The notes under the pieces are model-generated. The model had not been told where the DNA came from, made no database searches, and worked only from the letters and a program-made list of their open reading frames with translations. From Clostridiales bacterium (GTDB lineage: Bacteria; Bacillota; Clostridia; Lachnospirales; WQUN01), in assembly GCA_031282635.1 (NCBI GenBank), contig JAITDJ010000071.1:1-34350 (forward strand): a stretch of DNA of 34,350 nt, written 5' to 3'. Of the stretch, positions 16,244 through 34,350 are shown piece by piece. Every line of letters starts with the position of its first letter. Position 1 is the stretch's first letter. The position numbers and the translations under genes are program-made.

Positions 16244-19200
16244 TTAGGCCATAAGCCGGAACACATCCAAAATAGTCTGATCATCCACGCCCGCGAATAC
16301 CTCATCCAATAAGATTATCCTCGGGGCGTCACTCCGCGCGGCTTCGTACTTCGCCGCGATGGAACAGAACATTGGCGCGTAAATGGACATAGCCTTTTCA
16401 GCGTCGGAAAACTGTGAAAAAACTTTATCGGTCAATTCACGCCTGGACTCGCCGGTTTTAACGTAAGATAGCCGGAAATCAAACCACTTGCGGTAATCAA
16501 AAATCTGGCCCAGCGTGAAGTGCAGGCTTTGCTGCCCGTCGCTGGCCTCTATGGCTTTGCGCGCCTGCCTGATCCGCGATCTGAAACGCGCAGAAATTTT
16601 TTCAAAATCCTCGTCGTTACGCGTTTTAGCGTCTATCTTCAGTAGTTCAGCCAATTCCCTGGCGTCTATCTCTTCTTCCGTTTCCACTGCGCGGCTGACC
16701 CATGCCAAGCCAAACGCCAAGCCGCCGGGTATATTTATGTTTTTCATGATCTGATCTGTTTTCCTGACCCAGTCGTCGCACCGATAAATCTTATTGGATA
16801 TTTTCAGGGCCATATTCCGGCCCAACGCTTCCTCGAACAGCTTCCGATCCGATTCCTCAATCAGCCCGCGCTGAATTTCGATTTTCCTTTCCAGCAGTCT
16901 GTAAAGCGCGTCAATGCCTGTCTTTCGGCCTTCGGCCACGCATGTGATATTCAGACGATTTATTTTCAAGACCATTTCCGGATTCCGCTCAAATAATTCT
17001 TCCTCTTTCGGCTCGTACTCCCAAAGGTATCGCAAATTGTCCGATAACCGGTTATGTACCTCTTTCTCCATGTCTTCGGCGCTTCTGCCGACAAAATTAC
17101 GCTTGCCCAATTCCAGTCGATTCAGCGCCTTACTGACGCTGCCACGATCGTCCGTGTTCAAATCCTGTATATCCGTAAACCGCAGCGCCGCTTCGTCTTC
17201 CAACGCGTGCTTAACAAATGCCATTTCGCGTTCTTTTGCGGCTTTTACCTGGCCCGCTGTTTCGGTATCCGCAATCAACCTCGACAATTTGGATTCCAGC
17301 GCGCCGGAAGTTTTCCGCAATATATCCAGGCTGTTCTTAATCTCTTCCATTCGATGCCGCCTGGCCCCGATAGTCCGCACAACCTCCTCATAGCCCGAAG
17401 CGCAGAGCCGCTCCTCAACGCTGTTGATCTCTGCGTTGACGCCATTCTGACGGCGCTCCAGCTCAACCGTGTCATATAATAAGTTATCCAAATCTATTTT
17501 CAACGCCTCAAGCCTATCTATCTCATCAGCGGTTTTTGTGACGTTTGCCAGCAAGCTGTTATGCTCGTCAATAAAATCCGCCAAATCAAAGCTGTATTGA
17601 CGCATATTTTCCAGCGCGGCTTTATATGCCTTAATATCGGCGGGCAGACCGATTTGATCGCCCAGCGCCGCGGCTTTCGCGTTCAGACGATCTATCTCTT
17701 TTTTTATGGGAACAATACGACTGTTCAGGCTCTCGTATTCGCTTTTGGCGATCTGAATTCCAACGTCCAGGCCGCGCATGAACCCGGCGGCTTCAGTCAG
17801 CGCGTCCGTACCTGGCATACGTTTATATTCTCCCATCAGTTCGGCGGTTTCAGACTTCAATTCCTTTATTTCCGTTTCGTATAAAACTATCCGCTTGACC
17901 AAGCCCTCTATTTCCACCTGCAACGCGTGAATCGCGGCCTGACGGCTGCGCTCGCGCGCCGCTGCGCCAATGAATTTTGAAATATACTCTCCCGACGCCG
18001 TACCGGTGATCGCCCCGATACGAAACGAGCCCGAAGCGTTAACCGCGGTATGCGACTCTACGCCATAGTAAACGGCTTTAAGCGCGTTATCCGCGAGGAT
18101 TTTTAAGCCGGTTTCCCCATCCACTTCCAATATGCCGGCAAGGTCATAATCCTTGTCCAGTTTCGGCAGTTTATCAAAGACAAACATATATTTATCAGCC
18201 AGACCGGGGTTATCTTCCGCGGCTTTTAAAACCGTCTCCCGATACTTTTCCGGTATAACTATCGCGTCAAGTATGCCCATCCGCCATAAGGCCTCTTCAA
18301 CGCGGTTCGCGGACGTTTCGCTCACATCCGGTTTAAAGCGTGACAGCTTGTAAAACGGCGCAAACGGAATACCGTGTTCTTGTAAGTATTCACGCGCCCG
18401 TACGGTCTCCGGCAAACGTTCCGGCTCAATTTCCTTTGCCTCGCGCAGTCTTCTTATTTCGGCCTGCCTATTGTTTTTTTCTTCTTGAAGCCAGCTCATC
18501 TGAAGTTTTTTGGCCCCGATCCTCTGATCGATCGCACCGCGCAGCGCGGATAGCAGCTCATCTGTAAAAGGCGTAAGATGCAACCGTTCATCCGTATATT
18601 TAAACGCCTTTATAGCGTTATGGATGCCCTCCATCATGTCCGGCAAAACTGTCAGCCGCGTGTTCCCCACCGCCCACTCGTCTATAGCCTGTGTTAAATT
18701 TGACTTAATATCAAAAAAGTCCGATTCCGCTTTAGAAAACTCTTCGTTTTTGTCTTTCAGAACTTTACCGCTTTCATCCAACTTTTTATTCAGCTCGTCC
18801 CCTTCCGCATACAGCCGGGCTAAATTTTCAAGCAGATCCACGCCTTCACGCAAAGCTTCATCATGCCTCTTCAGCCCTTCTTTTATCAGAAGGAAATCGA
18901 ATTCCTCACACTCCGCAAAAGACTCTGTCATCAATTCATGTTCCTCAAACGCGGCTTCGTCAGCCAAGCCTTCCAATACCTTCAGCGCGCCGTCAATGCG
19001 GCTCATACGCCATCGCGCTTCCGCTTCCAGTGTTTTTATCGCTATATCGCTTTGACTAATGCGCGTCCTTTTCACAAGCGTATCTTTATTCTTTTTTCTC
19101 AGGGAATCGGCGTAATTTTCCGATTCAAACCTTAAACGCGTCAATCGTTCCATGGCTTCGGCTTCAGCCTCATGCCGCTCGCTTAACGCGCTGATTGTTT

Positions 19201-20146
19201 GCTCACACTCAATATTATCGCCGCACAGCCGCTCTATCGTTTCATTATTAAGCGTAATGTCGTTTTCTGTCTCAACTTTATTCGCCATTAGCTTCTCGTA
19301 TTCTTCGGCGGCTCTGTCAAATTCGCGGACGGACGCGATATACGCGCGCAGTTTGCCTGTCATCATAAGACGGTTATAATACCTGTATGCTTCCAATATA
19401 CGCCCGACCGCGTTAAAACTCTCTGTTATGGCCGTCAGCCGATTCTGTTGATTATCTATATTCTCAACAGCCTCGGTAAGCGGCCTCAGATCAGCGTCCG
19501 TCAGCGACGGAAGCGAATCCGACAGTATTTCCAGCATCACGCTGGGCTTAAAGTCCTTCGAGAGTGCAGGTCCGCACAGCTTGTCAATAAGTTCCAACAG
19601 TTCTTTATAGTTTTCAATCGATGGGAACCCAAACAACCGGCGGTTTACTTCTTTTATGTATTCCCGCTGAGAATCGAACACCAGACCGTCCGCGCCTAAT
19701 TCTGCGCACAGCTCCGCCCTTGTCAAACCATCCAATTCTCGAGCCTTTTTAACCAAACACAGGTTCCGGCCAACAGCGCGGTTTTCCGCGCAAAAATACC
19801 ACACGTCATGATTCCGGCGCTTTCGGGCGCGTGTACCTAATCCTACAGTCACAAGCTCGTCATTTTTGACAAATTCCATATACAGGTATCCGATACGCTC
19901 CTCGCGTTTGCCGCCTTCCCCCCGTATATCCAGCCGCCCGTCCCTGTCCCGAAACGTACTGAGCCATGCGAGGCCGCTATCTTCGTCCGTCAGCAGCGGC
20001 AGAAACATCCTCGTGATTACACGCTTGCCCGAACCGTTTATACGGCAGGGCAGCGGTCTGCCGTTTTTCCAAAAAAATTCCTGACTGCCATAATACCAAA
20101 AATTTATAAAGCCCGTACGTTTAATATCCCATCTGCCATCAACCAC
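16244..20146 (-). pseudogene. SMC-like ATPase, TIGR02680 / Wadjet JetC type, orphan with degenerate ATPase motifs and cut-off C-terminus
   Basis: 1300 residues in one open frame. The N-terminus (RTGFINFWYY, LTRAELCAELG, EVNRRLFGF, LSKDFKPSVMLEILSDSLP) matches the TIGR02680 family, the MukB/SMC-like subunit of a Wadjet anti-plasmid system whose partners carry DUF2397, DUF2398 and DUF2399. Long coiled coils fill about residues 270-1100. Key motifs are damaged: the P-loop reads RINGSGKR (R35 replaces the first Gly, R42 the Ser/Thr), and the ABC signature reads FSDAEKAM (1246-1253) instead of FSGGEKAM. Walker B LLDEVFAGVDD (D1281, E1282) is intact. The frame stops right after FRLMA, where the family normally continues for several dozen residues. 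No partner gene is adjacent. The GTG start has GGGGAG upstream. It is probably a decaying remnant; a repurposed protein is the alternative. Confidence 0.75.
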
Positions 20147-25696: not shown

Positions 25697-26139
25697 CTAT
25701 TCATCCTCAATCGTCAAAACTGCTTTAGGCCGTATCCATTTTAACATAGCCAGGTCTACTATTGCAGTTAATATTTCTTCTTCCGCCCCTGCCCACTGCT
25801 TTTTCCAGTTAAGCACGTACTCCAGTATATCCTTGTCAGAAACATCTTCCTGCGCCTTTATAAGCATGTCATAAGCATAAAGTGCTGTCGCCGATATTTC
25901 GGCCTGTGCGGTAGAACGGATACGGCTAAATAAATCTATCGTTTTTTCCGTGGCGTCAATTTCAAACTGGCTATACTTAGAAAAATCCAAATTAAACTCA
26001 GATGAAACAACAGTTTCCAGCATTTTGTCGCCTACCCGGCATTCTGTCATGAGGTTCGCGTTGGAAAACGCTGTTATCGCTTGTTTAGCCTCTTCCGAAT
26101 AAGGCCCATAAGCGCCCTTGCGAAAAACAAAGCCAGTGT
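25697..26139 (-). pseudogene. Winged-helix-type protein of unknown function, 5' part removed by the Tn7-like insertion
   Basis: On the minus strand about 147 codons read TGFVFRKGAYGPYSEEAK... to ...MLKWIRPKAVLTIEDE before TAG. The YGPYSEE block is reminiscent of the winged-helix region of DUF4065/SocA-type proteins, which often belong to toxin-antitoxin or phage-related loci, but I cannot assign the family firmly. The frame continues past 26139 only into the A/T-rich transposon end, so the original N-terminus and promoter are gone. Hence the island gene was probably interrupted by transposition. Confidence 0.6.
26135..26139. other. Predicted 5-bp target site duplication
   Basis: AGTGT directly precedes the proposed transposon terminus. 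Tn7-like elements duplicate 5 bases; the matching copy would lie beyond the window. Confidence 0.4.
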
Positions 26140-26146
26140 TGTAGAT

Positions 26147-26282
26147 GCACATTAAAGTTATATAATTACGATGTATAGTTCCATAAAATACATTATAGTT
26201 ATATAATAATCCTTGCACAAGATATTATACAATAAAGTTCAATAAAACAATTGATAGCCGAACAACAAAGTTGTATAATAGT
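26147..26282 (+). repeat. Five TnsB-binding-site-like repeats
   Basis: Copies of the pattern ACAnTAAAGTTnnATAAt have their GTT at 26157, 26178, 26198, 26237 and 26270. The first three abut (spacing 21 and 20), the last two are further apart (39 and 33). Copies: ACATTAAAGTTATATAAT, ATGTATAGTTCCATAAAA, ACATTATAGTTATATAAT, ACAATAAAGTTCAATAAA, ACAACAAAGTTGTATAAT. The same orientation throughout is expected for a Tn7-type end. Confidence 0.8.
26251..26279 (+). promoter_or_regulatory. Promoter of the tns operon
   Basis: TTGATA (26251-26256), a 17-base spacer and TATAAT (26274-26279), starting transcription about 15 bases before tnsA. TnsB-like site 5 covers the spacer and the -10, so TnsB bound there would be expected to repress the operon. 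Confidence 0.8.
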
Positions 26283-26299: not shown

Positions 26300-27112
26300 A
26301 TGGCAAAACATCGGCGTGTATGGAATGGTTCCGTATTCAACAGATACCTGCGCGAAGGACGTGGACAAGGGACAGGGATAAATTATAATCCTTGGATTCA
26401 TATACAGGACTTTCCCTCTCTTGGCATGGTATCACGGGTATCAGGTACAACAACGGGTCGCATTCATCACTTGATGTCAAACCTTGAGCTTTCCCTATTT
26501 TATCTGTTGGATTGGTCAGATGATATAACAGATATACGCGAGCAGTACCCGTTGATTGATTTAACGCAAGCGATTGAGATAGCGGAAAAAGCAAACATTC
26601 GGTATCCATATGACTCAAAGAGCGGCTTCCCATATGTTTTGACGAGTGATTTTTACATTGAAACAAAGCAAGGAACGATAGTTGTTTCGGTCAAACCATC
26701 GTCAGAACTTGGGAAGCCGCGAGTTCGCGAAAAACTGGAAATAGAGCGCCGCTATTGGAACATGCGTGGCGTCCAATGGAACATTATGACTGAGAACGAG
26801 ATAAGTCACACAAAGGCACACAACATTGAATGGTTGTCGCAAGCAAAAGATTTAGCAGTTTTCGGATTGTCAAAAGCAATTCAGGATGCTTGCTGTGAAT
26901 ACTTTTTGGAGTCATATAGCACCATCCGTTCTTCCCTTGCCGTCTTGTTCAAGACAGTTGAGATGGCGTTTGGATTGGTCGCCGGTATGGGACTGAATAT
27001 CTACAAACATTTGGCTTATTGGAAACGAATAGCTTTTAATGCCGATGAGACGGTAAATTTGACAGAGTTTTCGCACACGTTCAATTTATGTTACGCCGGA
27101 GGTGCGGTGTGA
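26300..27112 (+). CDS. tnsA: TnsA-like endonuclease of a Tn7-like transposon
   Basis: About 270 residues. TnsA cuts the 5' ends of the transposon so that, together with TnsB, the element moves by cut-and-paste. The restriction-enzyme-like active site is complete: E63 (SNLELSLFYLLDW), D117 (LTSDFYIET) and K132 (VVSVKPSSE). A C-terminal winged-helix half that contacts TnsC follows from about residue 165. I chose the ATG at 26300 with GAGGTGG 6 bases upstream; the frame also extends to TTG 26282. Its stop overlaps the tnsB start (GTGTGA). Confidence 0.93.
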   Translation: MAKHRRVWNGSVFNRYLREGRGQGTGINYNPWIHIQDFPSLGMVSRVSGTTTGRIHHLMSNLELSLFYLLDWSDDITDIREQYPLIDLTQAIEIAEKANIRYPYDSKSGFPYVLTSDFYIETKQGTIVVSVKPSSELGKPRVREKLEIERRYWNMRGVQWNIMTENEISHTKAHNIEWLSQAKDLAVFGLSKAIQDACCEYFLESYSTIRSSLAVLFKTVEMAFGLVAGMGLNIYKHLAYWKRIAFNADETVNLTEFSHTFNLCYAGGAV

Positions 27113-29193
27113 GTATTAGCATTAACACAATTATATTTGACGTTAACACAGGAGCGCAGTATTTAGTCCTTTGGATTGATCGGGACGGCAAATACGGCTA
27201 CTGGCACAATCTGTCGGGTACATCACGAACACCGGTAAAATTCAGGAGTGCAGAAGTTCACGTAAACATTACAAATGGTAGCTACGAAACAGACATATTT
27301 AAGGCGCAATTGCGTACAGAAGAAACACTTAGCCTAAAAGAACGAGAGCATCGTGATAAGCAATGGGGTTTAATCCAGTCGTTGGTTGAACGCGAGCCGG
27401 AAATATATGAGAAAAGCCAACGTTGGCAAATGCTCTGTGAGGTTTCTGAACAAAACGGTATTAAAGTTAACAACATATATGCTTTGTTAGACCGATATTG
27501 GCGTTCCGGTAAAAGTAAGAATGGATTATTGCCATTGTATTCAAACTGTGGTTCAAAAGGCAAGCCAAGAAAGAATTATTCCGAAAAGCCCGGAGTCAAG
27601 GCTGAAAGTGGCAAACCATTATCTGATACCGACCGCACGAACTTTGAAAGCACTATCCGAAAATACTATCTTACACAGCAAAAACGAAGTCTTAAGTCAA
27701 CTTATGAGAAACTGTTGCAAGATTTTTACACACGTAGAACTGGCGACGGCAGGCTAAAGCTGTTTGAGCCGTCTGAGATTCCAACATTCCGGCAGTTTCA
27801 ATATTGGTATTACGCAAATACTGACATAGTCAACGAGAAGAAAAAGCGCGATGGCGAAAGAGAGTTTGAACTAAACAGCCGTGCTGTTCTCGGTAAATCC
27901 GACTACGGTTTGATGGGCCCGGGGGCGCAGTTTCAAGTTGACGCCACAGTCGGTGACGTATATTTGGTGTCGCAGTTTGACCGTTCTAATATTATTGGCC
28001 GCCCTGTGCTGTATTTTATCGTTGACGCTTTTAGCAGAATGATTGTTGGGATGAGCGTTGGATTGGAAGGGCCGAGTTGGAACGGATTAGCGGCGGCGAT
28101 AACTAATATGGCGGCGGATAAAGTCGTGTTTTGCAAACAATATGGTGTGGATATTTCCGAAAGTGACTGGCCGTGCCGTTATGTTCCGGCGTCATTGCTC
28201 GGTGATAGAGGCGAGTTAGAAAGCAAAAACGCAGATAACCTTGTAAATATGTTTGGTATCCGTATAGTAAACGCTCCGCCATATCGTGCCGACCTGAAAG
28301 GCATTGTTGAGCAGCATTTCCGTACAATCAACACCAATGCGGTCGCGCTGCTACCCGGAAGTGTAAAACCGGATATGAGTAAACGTGGAGGACACGATTA
28401 CAGGCTTGACGCAATACTTGACATCAGGCAACTTACTCAAATTATAATCAAAAGTGTGCTGTATCACAACAAATTTCAATATATGGAGTCTTTTGCAAAA
28501 AGCGAAGCAATGATGGTGGCGGGTGTCAATGCTATTCCAATAAAGCTGTGGGAATGGGGCATAGAAAACTGCTCCGGCGCATTGCGAGTATTTCCGGAAG
28601 AAACAGTTAAATTTGCCGTGTTACCAACCGAAAAAGCAACTGTAACCGAGAAAGGGATACGGTTCAAAGGCCTATACTACTTGTGCGACCGTGCCAAGGA
28701 GGAGATGTGGTTTGAGAAAGCGCGGGCAAAAAAATATTGGTCAATCACTGTTTCATATGACCCTCGTGAAATGACCAATATTTACATTTGGGATGCAGCC
28801 TCCAAGAAGTATGATACCTGTTATTTATTGGATTGGAACAGCAAAAACGCAGAAAAAGCGCTTGCTGAAATTGTCTATGAACAGCAAAAAGAAAAACTTG
28901 AAGGAAAACGGCTCAATGCTACGGCAACGGAGGCGAAAGTAAATCTAAACGCGGATATTGACTCAATCGTTGCCGAGGCGAAGCGGATGAGCAAATCCAC
29001 TTCTGTAAAAAGCAAAAGCGAACGAATTTCCAATATTAGGGATAATCGCATTGCCGAACGCACGAGAATACAAAGCGGCGCAACTCCAGAATCCGAAGTC
29101 TCGTTCCCCACCGCGTTGCAAAACAAACCAGAAGAAGAACTGTCGCCCGTACTTCGTTTGATTAAAGCAAAAGCAGAGGAGAAATTGAAATGA
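27109..29193 (+). CDS. tnsB: TnsB-like DDE transposase
   Basis: 694 residues, the retroviral-integrase-type transposase that binds the end repeats, cuts the 3' ends and joins them to the target. Catalytic triad D278 (FQVDATVGDVYL), D366 (LLGDRGELESK) and E401 (KGIVEQHFRTINT) is intact. An N-terminal DNA-binding part (about 1-260) precedes it, and a basic C-terminal tail with a TnsC-contact role follows. The start is GTG 27109 with GGAGGT upstream. Its last codon overlaps the ATG of the ATPase-TOPRIM gene, so the two are translationally coupled, which is unusual. Confidence 0.95.
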   Translation: MSISINTIIFDVNTGAQYLVLWIDRDGKYGYWHNLSGTSRTPVKFRSAEVHVNITNGSYETDIFKAQLRTEETLSLKEREHRDKQWGLIQSLVEREPEIYEKSQRWQMLCEVSEQNGIKVNNIYALLDRYWRSGKSKNGLLPLYSNCGSKGKPRKNYSEKPGVKAESGKPLSDTDRTNFESTIRKYYLTQQKRSLKSTYEKLLQDFYTRRTGDGRLKLFEPSEIPTFRQFQYWYYANTDIVNEKKKRDGEREFELNSRAVLGKSDYGLMGPGAQFQVDATVGDVYLVSQFDRSNIIGRPVLYFIVDAFSRMIVGMSVGLEGPSWNGLAAAITNMAADKVVFCKQYGVDISESDWPCRYVPASLLGDRGELESKNADNLVNMFGIRIVNAPPYRADLKGIVEQHFRTINTNAVALLPGSVKPDMSKRGGHDYRLDAILDIRQLTQIIIKSVLYHNKFQYMESFAKSEAMMVAGVNAIPIKLWEWGIENCSGALRVFPEETVKFAVLPTEKATVTEKGIRFKGLYYLCDRAKEEMWFEKARAKKYWSITVSYDPREMTNIYIWDAASKKYDTCYLLDWNSKNAEKALAEIVYEQQKEKLEGKRLNATATEAKVNLNADIDSIVAEAKRMSKSTSVKSKSERISNIRDNRIAERTRIQSGATPESEVSFPTALQNKPEEELSPVLRLIKAKAEEKLK

Positions 29194-30818
29194 ATAAAAC
29201 TATTAAGTTTCCTCATGGTGAAGATGTCACGTTTGAGGGCGGCAAGCCGATTGTAATACTCGGAGCTAATGGAGCCGGGAAGACGCGATTTGGAGTGAAA
29301 ATAGAGGAACTGAACGACAAACGTGTCAACTATTCAAGTGTTGGTGTCGATGAAATGCTTGTCCACAGAATATCAGCACAAAAATCACTGAACATATCTG
29401 ACACCATTTTGCTAATGGATTACAATAGTTCTCAAAGAGCTGTCTACTTTGGGGATGCATACAGCAACTCAACAAAAAGTGGGCATAGATATGGCCGTCA
29501 ACCCGCAACATTTCTTCTTAATGATTATGATAAGGCACTCGCATATCTTTTTGCCAAAGAAAACAAAGAGCTTCAAGATACGCATATAGCAGAGGTAAGC
29601 GCTAACGCAAAAGGAGAACCCCGTCCTGCGATAATAACAACCATCCGAGAGACAGCAACAGAAATATGGAATAATTTATTACCTAAACGTAAGATTGATT
29701 TGACGGGCAATGCGGTACATGCATTAAAAGGCGAAGAAAAATATCACGGAAAAGAAATGAGTGATGGCGAACGTGTAATGCTGTACATGATTTGCCAAGT
29801 ATTACTCTTGCCACCCAAGAGTGTTATTATTATTGATGAACCTGAACTTCATATACATAAAGCAATAGTGAAAAAGCTGTGGGACAAACTCGAAACGTCA
29901 CGCAATGACTGTGTGTTTATGTATATAACTCACGATTTAGATTTTGCAGCCTCAAGAAATATCGAAAAAGTCTTGTGGATAAAAAGTTATGATGGTTCAG
30001 ATTGGGAGTATGAATTTCTTAATATAAGAGATTACGCCGAATTACCACAGGAGCTTTTATTCGAGGTGATTGGAACTCGGAAAAAAGTGCTTTTCGTTGA
30101 GGGAGAGCGGAATAATTATGACTACGATCTTTATAATGAGTTTTTCAAAGATAAAGGTTATCATGTCATCCCTTGCGGCGGATGCCAAGAGGTTGTGAGG
30201 ATTTACAAGGCAAAGAAAGCATATGAAACTCTAAGCGGAATAGAGGCTCACTGTATTATTGACCGCGATTTTCGAACGGATACTGAGATTACGGCACTAA
30301 AAAATGATGGCGTGAACTTTTTGGACGTTGCGGAAGTTGAAAACCTATTTGTTGTTCCTGCACTACTCGACATAATGGAGAAACAGCTTGGTTGTGACAC
30401 TGGTTCGGCTCAAAACGCAAAAGATTTTATTTCCGGCTTGTTCAACAGTAATAAAGATAATCAGATTAAAGAAGCGTTCCTTAAAGAAGTCAATCATCAG
30501 TTGACTCTGTTGAATTACGACGACAACAAATTAACTCCACAGGACATTCACTGTGATATTGCTGATAAATTCAGTGAGGAAAATGTAAAAGCGTACTTTG
30601 AAGGAAAAGAAGGCGCATTCGGAACCGTCACAGATATTACCGGCATATTACGAGTATTTAACTTTAAGGAACTTAGTGGGAAAATCGGCTCAAGATTTGG
30701 ATTGCACGGCTATATGGAATATCCCAAACGTGTCATTAACCTATTGAAGTCAAATCAAGATGGTGTTAGGAAGCGTATTTTAGATGCGTTAAAGCCTTAT
30801 ATTCCTGATTTGCCATAA
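29190..30818 (+). CDS. PARIS-like fusion: AAA (AriA-type) ATPase + DUF4435/TOPRIM (AriB-type) nuclease
   Basis: 542 residues. Part one is an ABC-class ATPase of the AAA_15/AAA_21 type: Walker A GANGAGKT (25-32), signature MSDGER (190-195), Walker B IIIDEPELHIH (D216, E217) and the switch histidine H248 in YITHDLDFA. Part two from about residue 295 is a DUF4435 TOPRIM-like domain: E304 in LFVEGERNNYDYDLY, D358-R-D360 in CIIDRDF, and E382/E384 in VAEVENLFV. This order matches AriA followed by AriB of the PARIS phage-defence system, where AriB is a tRNA-cutting nuclease released on sensing anti-restriction proteins. The ATG overlaps the tnsB stop; tnsC follows 54 bases later. OLD/GajA-like nuclease is the alternative. 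All motifs are intact. A role in transposition rather than defence is possible. Confidence 0.8.
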   Translation: MNKTIKFPHGEDVTFEGGKPIVILGANGAGKTRFGVKIEELNDKRVNYSSVGVDEMLVHRISAQKSLNISDTILLMDYNSSQRAVYFGDAYSNSTKSGHRYGRQPATFLLNDYDKALAYLFAKENKELQDTHIAEVSANAKGEPRPAIITTIRETATEIWNNLLPKRKIDLTGNAVHALKGEEKYHGKEMSDGERVMLYMICQVLLLPPKSVIIIDEPELHIHKAIVKKLWDKLETSRNDCVFMYITHDLDFAASRNIEKVLWIKSYDGSDWEYEFLNIRDYAELPQELLFEVIGTRKKVLFVEGERNNYDYDLYNEFFKDKGYHVIPCGGCQEVVRIYKAKKAYETLSGIEAHCIIDRDFRTDTEITALKNDGVNFLDVAEVENLFVVPALLDIMEKQLGCDTGSAQNAKDFISGLFNSNKDNQIKEAFLKEVNHQLTLLNYDDNKLTPQDIHCDIADKFSEENVKAYFEGKEGAFGTVTDITGILRVFNFKELSGKIGSRFGLHGYMEYPKRVINLLKSNQDGVRKRILDALKPYIPDLP

Positions 30819-30872
30819 CGCTATGAGTGTGTGCAAACTATACCGACGCCTTCAGTAGAAAGGGTTTATAAA

Positions 30873-32423
30873 ATGACCGAACAGCAAGCGATATACACCG
30901 AGCAGGAGTTCTTGCCTGAGTATAAAAACAATCCATTGATTGAAGCGTTACCTCCGATTTTGGAAGATAGCGGCAAGGTCATTGACATGCTCTCGCATAA
31001 CGATGGACATCACGATGGTGAGCGTCAATTAAGCTCGCAACATCGTATGCACTGCGTTCTGAGACTGTTCAGATATTTTCAACCGTTAGAGCAGCATATT
31101 GATATTGAACAGCGGTTTTCTCTTTGCATCCGGCAAGGTTATCTGCATCGCAGCCCGCTTTCCCCGGATTACGCTATGGCTTTAGCTGATGGTCACAAGG
31201 TTATAAAAAGCGGGAGCTATATCTTGCCGATTGAGTACAATCCGACCGGTTCGGGATTCACGATAATCGGGTTATCCGGGATAGGAAAAACTTCGGCAGT
31301 TACACGGGTGCTGAATCTGTATCCACAGGTTATTGTACATTCGCGCTATCACGATACGCCGCTCATATTGAAACAGATTGTATGGCTTAAACTGGAGTGT
31401 CCTCACGACGGTTTAGTGAAGGGGCTGTGTATGGAGTTTTTCGGAGCTGTTGATCGCGCCGCCGGAACCAATTATTTTGAGATGTACGCAAAGCGCGCGT
31501 CTACTATTGATATTTTGATGCTGAGAATGGAACAGATAGCGCGGCTTCATTGTGTAGGCGTACTCGTAATTGACGAGATACAACACCTAACCCTCGCAAA
31601 AGGCGGCGGGTCTGAAAAAATGCTGAACTTCCTTGTTACGCTTGTAAATAAAATAGGCATCCCAGTTGTTCTTATCGGAACCACGCTCGCAATGGAGGTT
31701 CTGCAAAGCAAGTTCCGCCAAGCGCGGCGCAGCAGCGGCCATCAAGGGGATTTGTTATGGGACAGAATGAAAAATGATACCTCGTGGGATATTTTTGTAT
31801 CGACTATGTGGAAAAATCAATGGACTCGGCAAATAGTACTGATAAATGACGAGTTTAAGAATGCGCTTTACTATGAAAGTCAGGGCATAGCTGACATTGC
31901 CGTGAAACTATATGCCATGGCACAGATTCGGGCTATCGGATTGCAGACGGATATAATTACCCCGGATGATTTTCACATTGTCGCTTCCGAAAAGCTTGGA
32001 CTGGTGAAACCCGCGCTTGACGCCCTGCGCTCCGGCGACAAGAAGCGAATAGCGGCAATCGGTGATATTGCGCCGATTAGTATAGAAGATTATTATATGG
32101 CATATTTATCCATGCTGCCGCCGGCAACAGAGAGCGTTCCCGAAAAACGCACTGAAATTACTCTGTCGGAGCAAGTTGTGCTAAAACTGTTGGAGATGGG
32201 CATTGAGCCAACGCAGGCGAAAAGGCTTGTCGGAAAGGCTATGGCAGGAAACACAGGCAAAAAAACGCTCGCCGGGTTAATACTCAAAGCGGTTACGCTT
32301 TACGCATCCGAATCTGAAAATACAAAACAAGACTCCGATGATGGTGGAGCACCTAATGATGTCCGTGAAGCAAGCGGTTATGATGGCATGAAAGCTGCCG
32401 GGTTGGTCGGCAAGCCGTTGTGA
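30873..32423 (+). CDS. tnsC: TnsC-like AAA+ regulator of transposition
   Basis: About 516 residues. TnsC polymerises on target DNA in an ATP-dependent way, linking TniQ/TnsD to the TnsAB transposase. Walker A GLSGIGKT (133-140, K139), Walker B LVIDEIQHL (D234, E235) and sensor 1 VVLIGTT are present, within a region typical of the TniB/TnsC AAA_22 family. The N-terminal 110 and C-terminal 180 residues are longer than the core and probably contact TniQ and TnsAB. The ATG at 30873 has AGAAAGGG 8 bases upstream; a GTG at 30831 is possible but lacks a site. The stop overlaps the tniQ GTG. Confidence 0.94.
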   Translation: MTEQQAIYTEQEFLPEYKNNPLIEALPPILEDSGKVIDMLSHNDGHHDGERQLSSQHRMHCVLRLFRYFQPLEQHIDIEQRFSLCIRQGYLHRSPLSPDYAMALADGHKVIKSGSYILPIEYNPTGSGFTIIGLSGIGKTSAVTRVLNLYPQVIVHSRYHDTPLILKQIVWLKLECPHDGLVKGLCMEFFGAVDRAAGTNYFEMYAKRASTIDILMLRMEQIARLHCVGVLVIDEIQHLTLAKGGGSEKMLNFLVTLVNKIGIPVVLIGTTLAMEVLQSKFRQARRSSGHQGDLLWDRMKNDTSWDIFVSTMWKNQWTRQIVLINDEFKNALYYESQGIADIAVKLYAMAQIRAIGLQTDIITPDDFHIVASEKLGLVKPALDALRSGDKKRIAAIGDIAPISIEDYYMAYLSMLPPATESVPEKRTEITLSEQVVLKLLEMGIEPTQAKRLVGKAMAGNTGKKTLAGLILKAVTLYASESENTKQDSDDGGAPNDVREASGYDGMKAAGLVGKPL

Positions 32424-34350
32424 CGGGTGGATTCTTCCCGACTCCGTACCCTGACGAGTGTTTATATAGTGTTTTGTGCAGATACTACGTCCGCTGTGGG
32501 GGCGCGGGATATGAAATTGTATGTAAAATGCTGTTTAACGGGCTTCAAAATCTCATGGGGACTATATATTTGCCTATAAAATCAGAACGCACAGACTATT
32601 GGGCATCGCCGGAATCCGGCGTTACCCGTTCCGTCATTGCCATTAACCATACCCTGTATCCATACTTTGCAATATCGTATACGCCGGAATTACGTGTAGA
32701 AATTGAAAAGGTGCTAAACGGCGGAGTTCCTGCTTTAACATACGACCGCATAATGGTATTGAAAAGCAGACGTTCGTGGCTGAAGTATTTACGCTACTGC
32801 CCATTGTGTGCCGCAGAAGATATTGCCGAGCACGGAGAAACTTACTGGCATCGCAAACACCAAATTCCCGGTTCCTATTTTTGTACTAAGCACCAAATCC
32901 GGCTTGTCAACTCGCACATAACGACTAAGCAGGCTACATCAGGATTCTATCCTGCTTCAAGTGAAACGCAAGTCGGCACTGCATACACCGTCGCTGATAT
33001 ATTTGATAAGCACAAAGACAAATGCTTGAAAATAGGTCGGGAAAGCGAATGGCTTCTCGAAAACGGCTTGTCGGTTGACTGGTCGGAAAACGGGCGTGAT
33101 AAATATTTGAAGTTATTTCGCGACAAGGGAATAGCGTCAGTCCACGGAGTCCGATGCGATTCAAATGCCTTAAACGATGCCGTAAATGATTATTGGAGCC
33201 AAGAATTTCTCGGCGGGCTCTTTTCAGAAACCCCGATTTTTTCTGAATGGCTCTCTCAAATCCATAGGAATATGATGAGTAGGTTCTTACCGTTGCAACA
33301 TATATTGCTGATGTGCATTGCAAAAGGTTCTGTTGTTGATTTTGTAAACAGTGGCGTTTCGGAAAATCCTTTCGGAGCAGCACCGTTCATTTGCGAAAAT
33401 CCGATTTGTGATCATTATCATATTGATGGTGCGGTTTGCATGGAAGTCCGCAACTTTAACAGCAGAGCGGTCGGATATTTTTGTTGCGAGCATTGTGGTA
33501 TGCGGTACAAAATCAGTAAATCCAAGAGTTTGCGCGGAATACCGGTAATTTTGGATTATGGGCATTTGTGGACAAGTGAGCTAATCCGGTGCAGTCATGA
33601 TAAAAATGTCAGCATTACCAAAACGGCAGAAATTCTGAGATGCGATAAAAGCATAATAATGTTACAGAAGAAAAAGCTCGGACTATTGCGCACTCCGCAG
33701 TATGACATTGAACTCGGCCCCGAAGAATATTACAAATCCAAAGTTGTTTCTCTTATTGAAGAATACGGTGAGGTTACATATTCGCTTTTACAGGAGAAAG
33801 CACCCGGAGCATATGATTATCTCTGCGACCATCATAAGGAATGGCTCAATGATCATTTGACTTTGAGATGGGAAACGGCTGAAAGACGTATGTACGCAGA
33901 ATGTGCACAGAAAAAAGTACAGCAGGCAATCGCACATATCACTGCCAATCCTCCGGATAGACAGATTTCTTACGGATATATTGCGGAGGTTACAGGGCTA
34001 ACACGGGATAATCTGCGTTCAAATCAGCGGATTCGTGCTTGTGTCGATGTTATCGTTGAGAACCGGGAAGATTGGTATTGGCGGCGTATGACAACGATAT
34101 ATCGCAGCAAACCCATTGAGGGCAGACCATATACTGCCGTTGAAATATGCCGCGCGGCATCCATTGAGATGAAAACGTATAAAAAGTATCGAGAACTCTT
34201 TGAGGAGGTGGTGAACGAGTTAAACGCAAACAGAGGGCGTATAGCAGACCGTGTAAATGGGAATAATTTCCACAAGAAACAAGAAGGAGATGTTCCCCAT
34301 GACACAACTAAACGAACAAGAACGCGCCCTCATCAATCTGATCGCGGAAG
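32420..34350 (+). CDS. tnsD: TniQ/TnsD-like target-selection protein, 3' end outside window
   Basis: The frame opens at GTG 32420, overlapping the tnsC stop (GTGA), and stays open for more than 640 codons to the edge. The TniQ domain starts GGFFPTPYPDECLYSVLCRY, with zinc-binding C127/C130 (YCPLC), H147 (RKHQIPGSYFC), C155 and H158 (CTKHQIRL). A second Cys cluster follows (ICENPICDHYHI; CCEHCGMRY, about residues 325-365), as in TnsD. The C-terminal 250 residues contain helix-turn-helix-like segments. It should choose the insertion site; because the element sits inside an island gene, its target may not be glmS. No separate ribosome binding site is seen, which suggests coupling to tnsC. Confidence 0.88.
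   Translation, partial: MTGGFFPTPYPDECLYSVLCRYYVRCGGAGYEIVCKMLFNGLQNLMGTIYLPIKSERTDYWASPESGVTRSVIAINHTLYPYFAISYTPELRVEIEKVLNGGVPALTYDRIMVLKSRRSWLKYLRYCPLCAAEDIAEHGETYWHRKHQIPGSYFCTKHQIRLVNSHITTKQATSGFYPASSETQVGTAYTVADIFDKHKDKCLKIGRESEWLLENGLSVDWSENGRDKYLKLFRDKGIASVHGVRCDSNALNDAVNDYWSQEFLGGLFSETPIFSEWLSQIHRNMMSRFLPLQHILLMCIAKGSVVDFVNSGVSENPFGAAPFICENPICDHYHIDGAVCMEVRNFNSRAVGYFCCEHCGMRYKISKSKSLRGIPVILDYGHLWTSELIRCSHDKNVSITKTAEILRCDKSIIMLQKKKLGLLRTPQYDIELGPEEYYKSKVVSLIEEYGEVTYSLLQEKAPGAYDYLCDHHKEWLNDHLTLRWETAERRMYAECAQKKVQQAIAHITANPPDRQISYGYIAEVTGLTRDNLRSNQRIRACVDVIVENREDWYWRRMTTIYRSKPIEGRPYTAVEICRAASIEMKTYKKYRELFEEVVNELNANRGRIADRVNGNNFHKKQEGDVPHDTTKRTRTRPHQSDRG
34299..34350 (+). CDS. Start of a further gene, product unknown, partial
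   Basis: ATG at 34299 is preceded by a strong AAGGAGATG ribosome binding site at the right distance. Only MTQLNEQERALINLIAE is visible, so the product cannot be named. It overlaps the tniQ/tnsD frame by at least 52 bases in another frame. Confidence 0.55.
   Translation, partial: MTQLNEQERALINLIAE

Follow-up and report, generated by a model that had tools for sequence, protein, structure and literature searches.

Single-gene fusions of an ATPase with a DUF4435 domain have already been counted as PARIS (Rousset 2022, PMC9122126). PARIS has also been found embedded in BREX operons, both in Salmonella D23580 (PMC11341690) and in a survey of BREX systems (PMC12839542). PARIS nested in the core operon of a Tn7-like element was not found in the literature searched. 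Here we describe such a locus in a 34,350 bp contig of a Clostridiales bacterium (JAITDJ010000071.1, the window), where a gene of this kind, ariAB, stands between tnsB and tnsC.

The ariAB gene (29190-30818, + strand) starts with ATG and encodes 542 amino acids without an internal stop. The protein is composed of an OLD/ABC ATPase (about residues 1-280), a DUF4435/Toprim nuclease domain (about 297-440) and a helical C-terminus. Residues 8-540 match the PADLOC AriAB model PDLC02982 (E 6.5e-122) and residues 297-440 the AriB model PDLC02983 (E 7e-13). With Pfam, AAA_21 and DUF4435 (PF14491, E 1.1e-13) were both found above the cut-offs. The ATPase carries a Walker A motif GANGAGKT with K31, the signature SDGE at 191-194, a Walker B region DEPE at 216-219, and H248. 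In an alignment of 18 AriAB sequences, K31, S191-D192-G193-E194, P218-E219, H248, E304, D360, E382 and E384 are invariant and D216, D358 and N385 are near-invariant. All conserved catalytic residues are present in the window protein, which is 25-42% identical to the aligned homologues. The original prediction of an intact ABC-class ATPase joined to DUF4435/TOPRIM in one chain was correct in its ORF coordinates and domain calls, and sequence profiles support the assignment of the gene as a fused PARIS-type AriAB.

Comparison with solved structures, which had been proposed with the original prediction, gave a mixed result. The AF2 models were confident, with a mean pLDDT of 85.9 for the whole protein and 93.7 for the second half alone. 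Foldseek searches with the whole model returned PtuA, OLD 6p74 and GajA, which are general ABC-ATPase, OLD and Gabija relatives, with low TM-scores. When the second half alone was compared with the PDB, the top match was again the OLD nuclease 6p74 at E 0.044 and nothing was significant. A single AriAB sequence found no solved structure, and no convincing PDB sequence match to the second domain was observed. Profile A4 reached the solved AriA structures 8v45 and 8ux9 weakly (E 2e-4). As the fold comparison gave no significant match for the second half, PARIS membership rests on the sequence profiles.

The surrounding genes form a Tn7-like operon on the + strand. They are tnsA (26300-27112, Pfam TnsA N and C domains), tnsB (27088-29193, Mu-transpos_C, with the C-terminal tail retained), tnsC (30873-32423, TniB/AAA_22) and a tnsD/tniQ target selector (32420-34348, TnsD and TniQ), which is open at the contig end. 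Relatives have the same gene order. The start of tnsC was set by alignment to these relatives at the ATG at 30873 and not at the mechanical GTG at 30831, which would give TnsC 14 extra residues that are absent from the nearest relatives. With this start, 54 bp separate the ariAB stop from tnsC. Upstream of tnsA lies the inferred right end of the transposon (26137-26282, + strand) with four direct repeats resembling TnsB sites, at 26149, 26190, 26229 and 26262. Their spacing of 41, 39 and 33 bp is identical in the relative L028. DNA similarity to L028 begins near 26140, and the tip at 26137 was read from the sequence. The left end lies beyond the contig, and a repeat-pattern search of the window's own genome yielded chance-level sites only. 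L028 has end-like repeats in opposite orientation (53-129) immediately ahead of its right end, an arrangement that resembles an abutting left end in a tandem or minimal element.

Two other reading frames of the window were noted. An ORF on the minus strand (25697-26218) runs across the transposon right end at about 26137. Pfam gave no match for its body, and 40 related genomes contained no relative of it. The transposon may have been inserted into this gene. Further upstream, a gene of the JetC type (Wadjet II, MukB-like) encodes 1,300 amino acids (16244-20146, - strand). No jetA, jetB or jetD was recognised beside it among neighbours that were partly examined.

The insertion point was defined by comparison with the nearest transposons, L028 and L029, whose TnsB and TnsC are 73-76% and 77-79% identical to those of the window. 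In both relatives tnsB and tnsC overlap by 8 bp with no gene between them. In the window, ariAB separates the two genes and its ATG overlaps the tnsB stop in a shared ATGA at 29190-29193, both as originally described. The blastn alignment to L028 stops at 29190 and restarts at 30870. The insert is clean, measures 1,683 bp and has AAATGA at either end, at 29188-29193 (left boundary, set against the L028 and L029 junctions, which are empty) and at 30871-30876 (right boundary, from the sequence and the blastn break). This pair could have arisen by chance, as such letters are common near start codons, or could reflect microhomology between the two start codons. The GAGGAG ribosome-binding site at 29176-29181, which precedes and serves tnsC in L028 and L029, has been taken over by ariAB, and the insert supplies a new site for tnsC, AGAAAGG at 30857-30863. 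Compared with its two nearest relatives, TnsB has lost only its last two residues (alignment A2). The GC3 of ariAB is 0.356 versus 0.442 for tnsB and 0.494 for tnsC. Taken together, the exact boundaries, the intact neighbours and the lower GC3 point to a recent, precise and non-disruptive capture.

To see how often this arrangement occurs, tnsB-tnsC junctions were surveyed in an order sample of 295 genomes, 38 genomes of the family and a class sample of 391 genomes; these are samples and not all genomes. Only one of 34 distinct junctions, that of the window, bears AriAB. In 32 of the other 33 readable junctions the genes overlap or are separated by less than 100 bp, and in one the gap is 365 bp; none contains AriAB. 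Tabulation of the neighbours in these samples bears out the arrangement in the window and finds it nowhere else. A conserved tnsB-ariAB-tnsC family is rejected by these 33 junctions, which include those of the two nearest elements. Within everything searched the arrangement occurs in one genome only, an outcome that the original prediction had named as counting against it. Among viral contigs, no relatives of TnsC were found. A genome scan with the AriAB profile, a method of low sensitivity, found two loci, neither adjoining tns genes. Found in a single genome among those searched, the locus seems to represent a defence passenger at an unusual position and not a novel type of transposon.

The singleton arrangement would also be expected of a neutral or decaying passenger, that is, a chance insertion tolerated as it left tnsB and tnsC unbroken and having no selected function. 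In addition, ariAB has no close relative usable for a selection test, and a single-sequence genome scan of low sensitivity found no close relatives. However, the 542-codon frame has stayed open and retains residues conserved in distant homologues, and ribosome-binding sites are present for both ariAB and tnsC. We therefore consider a functionless passenger unlikely.

AriAB homologues elsewhere were found alone, on plasmids and also on viral contigs, as well as next to other systems. In genome G405 (L058, 6134-7750) the gene is flanked by type III mod and res, at distances of 27 and 14 bp, in G759 it follows an HpaII-type endonuclease by 21 bp, and in G284 it follows brxC by about 8 bp. In G444 (L061, G444:C34:56000-75049) it belongs to a different Tn7-like element, where tnsD ends 106 bp upstream of it and several arrays of left-end-like repeats lie downstream. 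This element has a truncated tnsA start, beyond which the sequence resembles another mobile element. G024 encodes nearly the same TnsB as G444, and its tnsD-adjacent cargo includes a Lamassu LmuB-like gene instead. These near-twin transposons with different defence genes indicate that defence genes are exchangeable cargo there. AriAB kin thus form a portable family, found also in or tightly behind R-M, BREX and Tn7 operons, and operon nesting is habitual for PARIS-type genes.

The window protein is placed in the AriAB tree beside a lone copy from G638 (support 100/99), and the AriAB of G444 branches elsewhere. In the TnsB and TnsC trees L028 and L029 are the neighbours of the window, and G444 is distant. 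Common descent with the Tn7-borne AriAB of G444 is therefore unsupported. By the comparison of the three trees, which the original prediction had proposed, the Tn7 associations of the window and of G444 are best read as independent captures. This G638 copy (L056, 5949-7385), the nearest neighbour in the AriAB tree, is a shorter protein in which much of the ATPase mid-region is missing but the catalytic motifs are kept.

A promoter for the operon is predicted at 26251-26279 (+ strand, TTGATA-17-TATAAT), where it overlaps the innermost repeat resembling a TnsB site. It has 11 of 12 consensus matches, and such matches are no commoner in the region than in shuffles. At the same place L028 and L029 have TTGACA-17-CATAAT and TTGACA-17-TATAAT, respectively. 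TnsB might control this putative promoter. Expression of ariAB with the transposase, as had been claimed, is supported by operon anatomy alone.

This anatomy might also reflect a nuclease coupled to transposition that guards or regulates the transposase. AriAB expression could rise with tnsABC once TnsB repression ends, for example upon entry into a new cell, or the nuclease could fire when a foreign protein blocks TnsB or TnsC. The location of ariAB inside the operon, the translational chaining kept on both sides and the likely promoter overlapping a TnsB-site-like repeat favour such coupling, and sensing of anti-restriction proteins by tRNases has a precedent in PrrC and PARIS (PMC12409349). 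On the other hand, 33 other elements, the two nearest among them, manage without ariAB, the AriAB family is found elsewhere alone or beside unrelated systems, and E. coli PARIS needs no guarded partner (PMC9122126). Coupling thus seems distinctly unlikely, and the guard and regulator roles raised in the original prediction are possible but unsupported. It is very unlikely that a tRNA-cutting PARIS nuclease, expressed together with the transposase and controlled by TnsB, has joined the Tn7-like transposition programme, in which case each round of transposase expression would arm a switch for defence or against competitors, or interference with the transposase would set it off. Finally, although the draft genome comprises 263 contigs, an ariAB fragment wrongly joined into the tns operon is hardly credible because the insert lies exactly at the stop/start point between two intact neighbours and the TnsB and TnsC flanks show similar levels of match to the same relatives.

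The locus is probably explained by a single-chain PARIS abortive-infection gene that was captured once, recently, at the stop-start point between tnsB and tnsC and is co-expressed as defence cargo. As cargo, ariAB would ride on a tnsA-B-ariAB-C-D message from the right-end promoter, and its translation would start from the ribosome-binding site once used by tnsC. On the model of characterised PARIS (PMC12409363), the AriA-like sensor ATPase would keep the AriB-like Toprim ribonuclease inactive, and binding of a phage protein, for example an anti-restriction DNA mimic, would release it. The released nuclease would then cut host tRNA and stop growth, which would protect the population carrying the transposon. 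The seat inside the transposase operon and outside the usual cargo zone is not by itself explained by a plain cargo account. If AriAB is active, immunity would be tied directly to transposase expression. As only one lineage is involved, the reach of the finding is modest.

Compared with known systems, the window gene resembles the single-gene form of PARIS (PMC9122126) in joining ATPase and DUF4435 in one chain, in matching the PADLOC AriAB model over nearly its whole length and in belonging to a family that occurs on plasmids and viral contigs, but differs in standing between tnsB and tnsC. Like defence cargo of Tn7-like elements (Benler 2021, PMC8649781), it is a putative anti-phage gene on such an element, comparable to the AriAB behind tnsD in G444, but unlike such cargo it interrupts the core operon. 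With BREX-embedded PARIS, and with the G284 copy directly behind brxC, it shares the placement of a PARIS-type module inside another multigene operon. In contrast to those, its host operon is a transposase and not a defence operon, and so AriAB has no obvious functional pairing. A further comparison is PrrC, whose nuclease is not known to be a Toprim domain. Within the EcoprrI type I R-M operon (PMC12409349), PrrC is, as predicted for AriAB, a tRNA-cutting nuclease encoded with another system; it is held by its R-M partner, whereas the window AriAB gives no sign of such holding. The transposase operon is a new address for PARIS-type genes and joins the operons known to house them, BREX and, at loci seen here, R-M. 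The window thereby provides an example of a Tn7-like core operon that can take in a predicted toxic defence gene with reading frame and translation signals retained.
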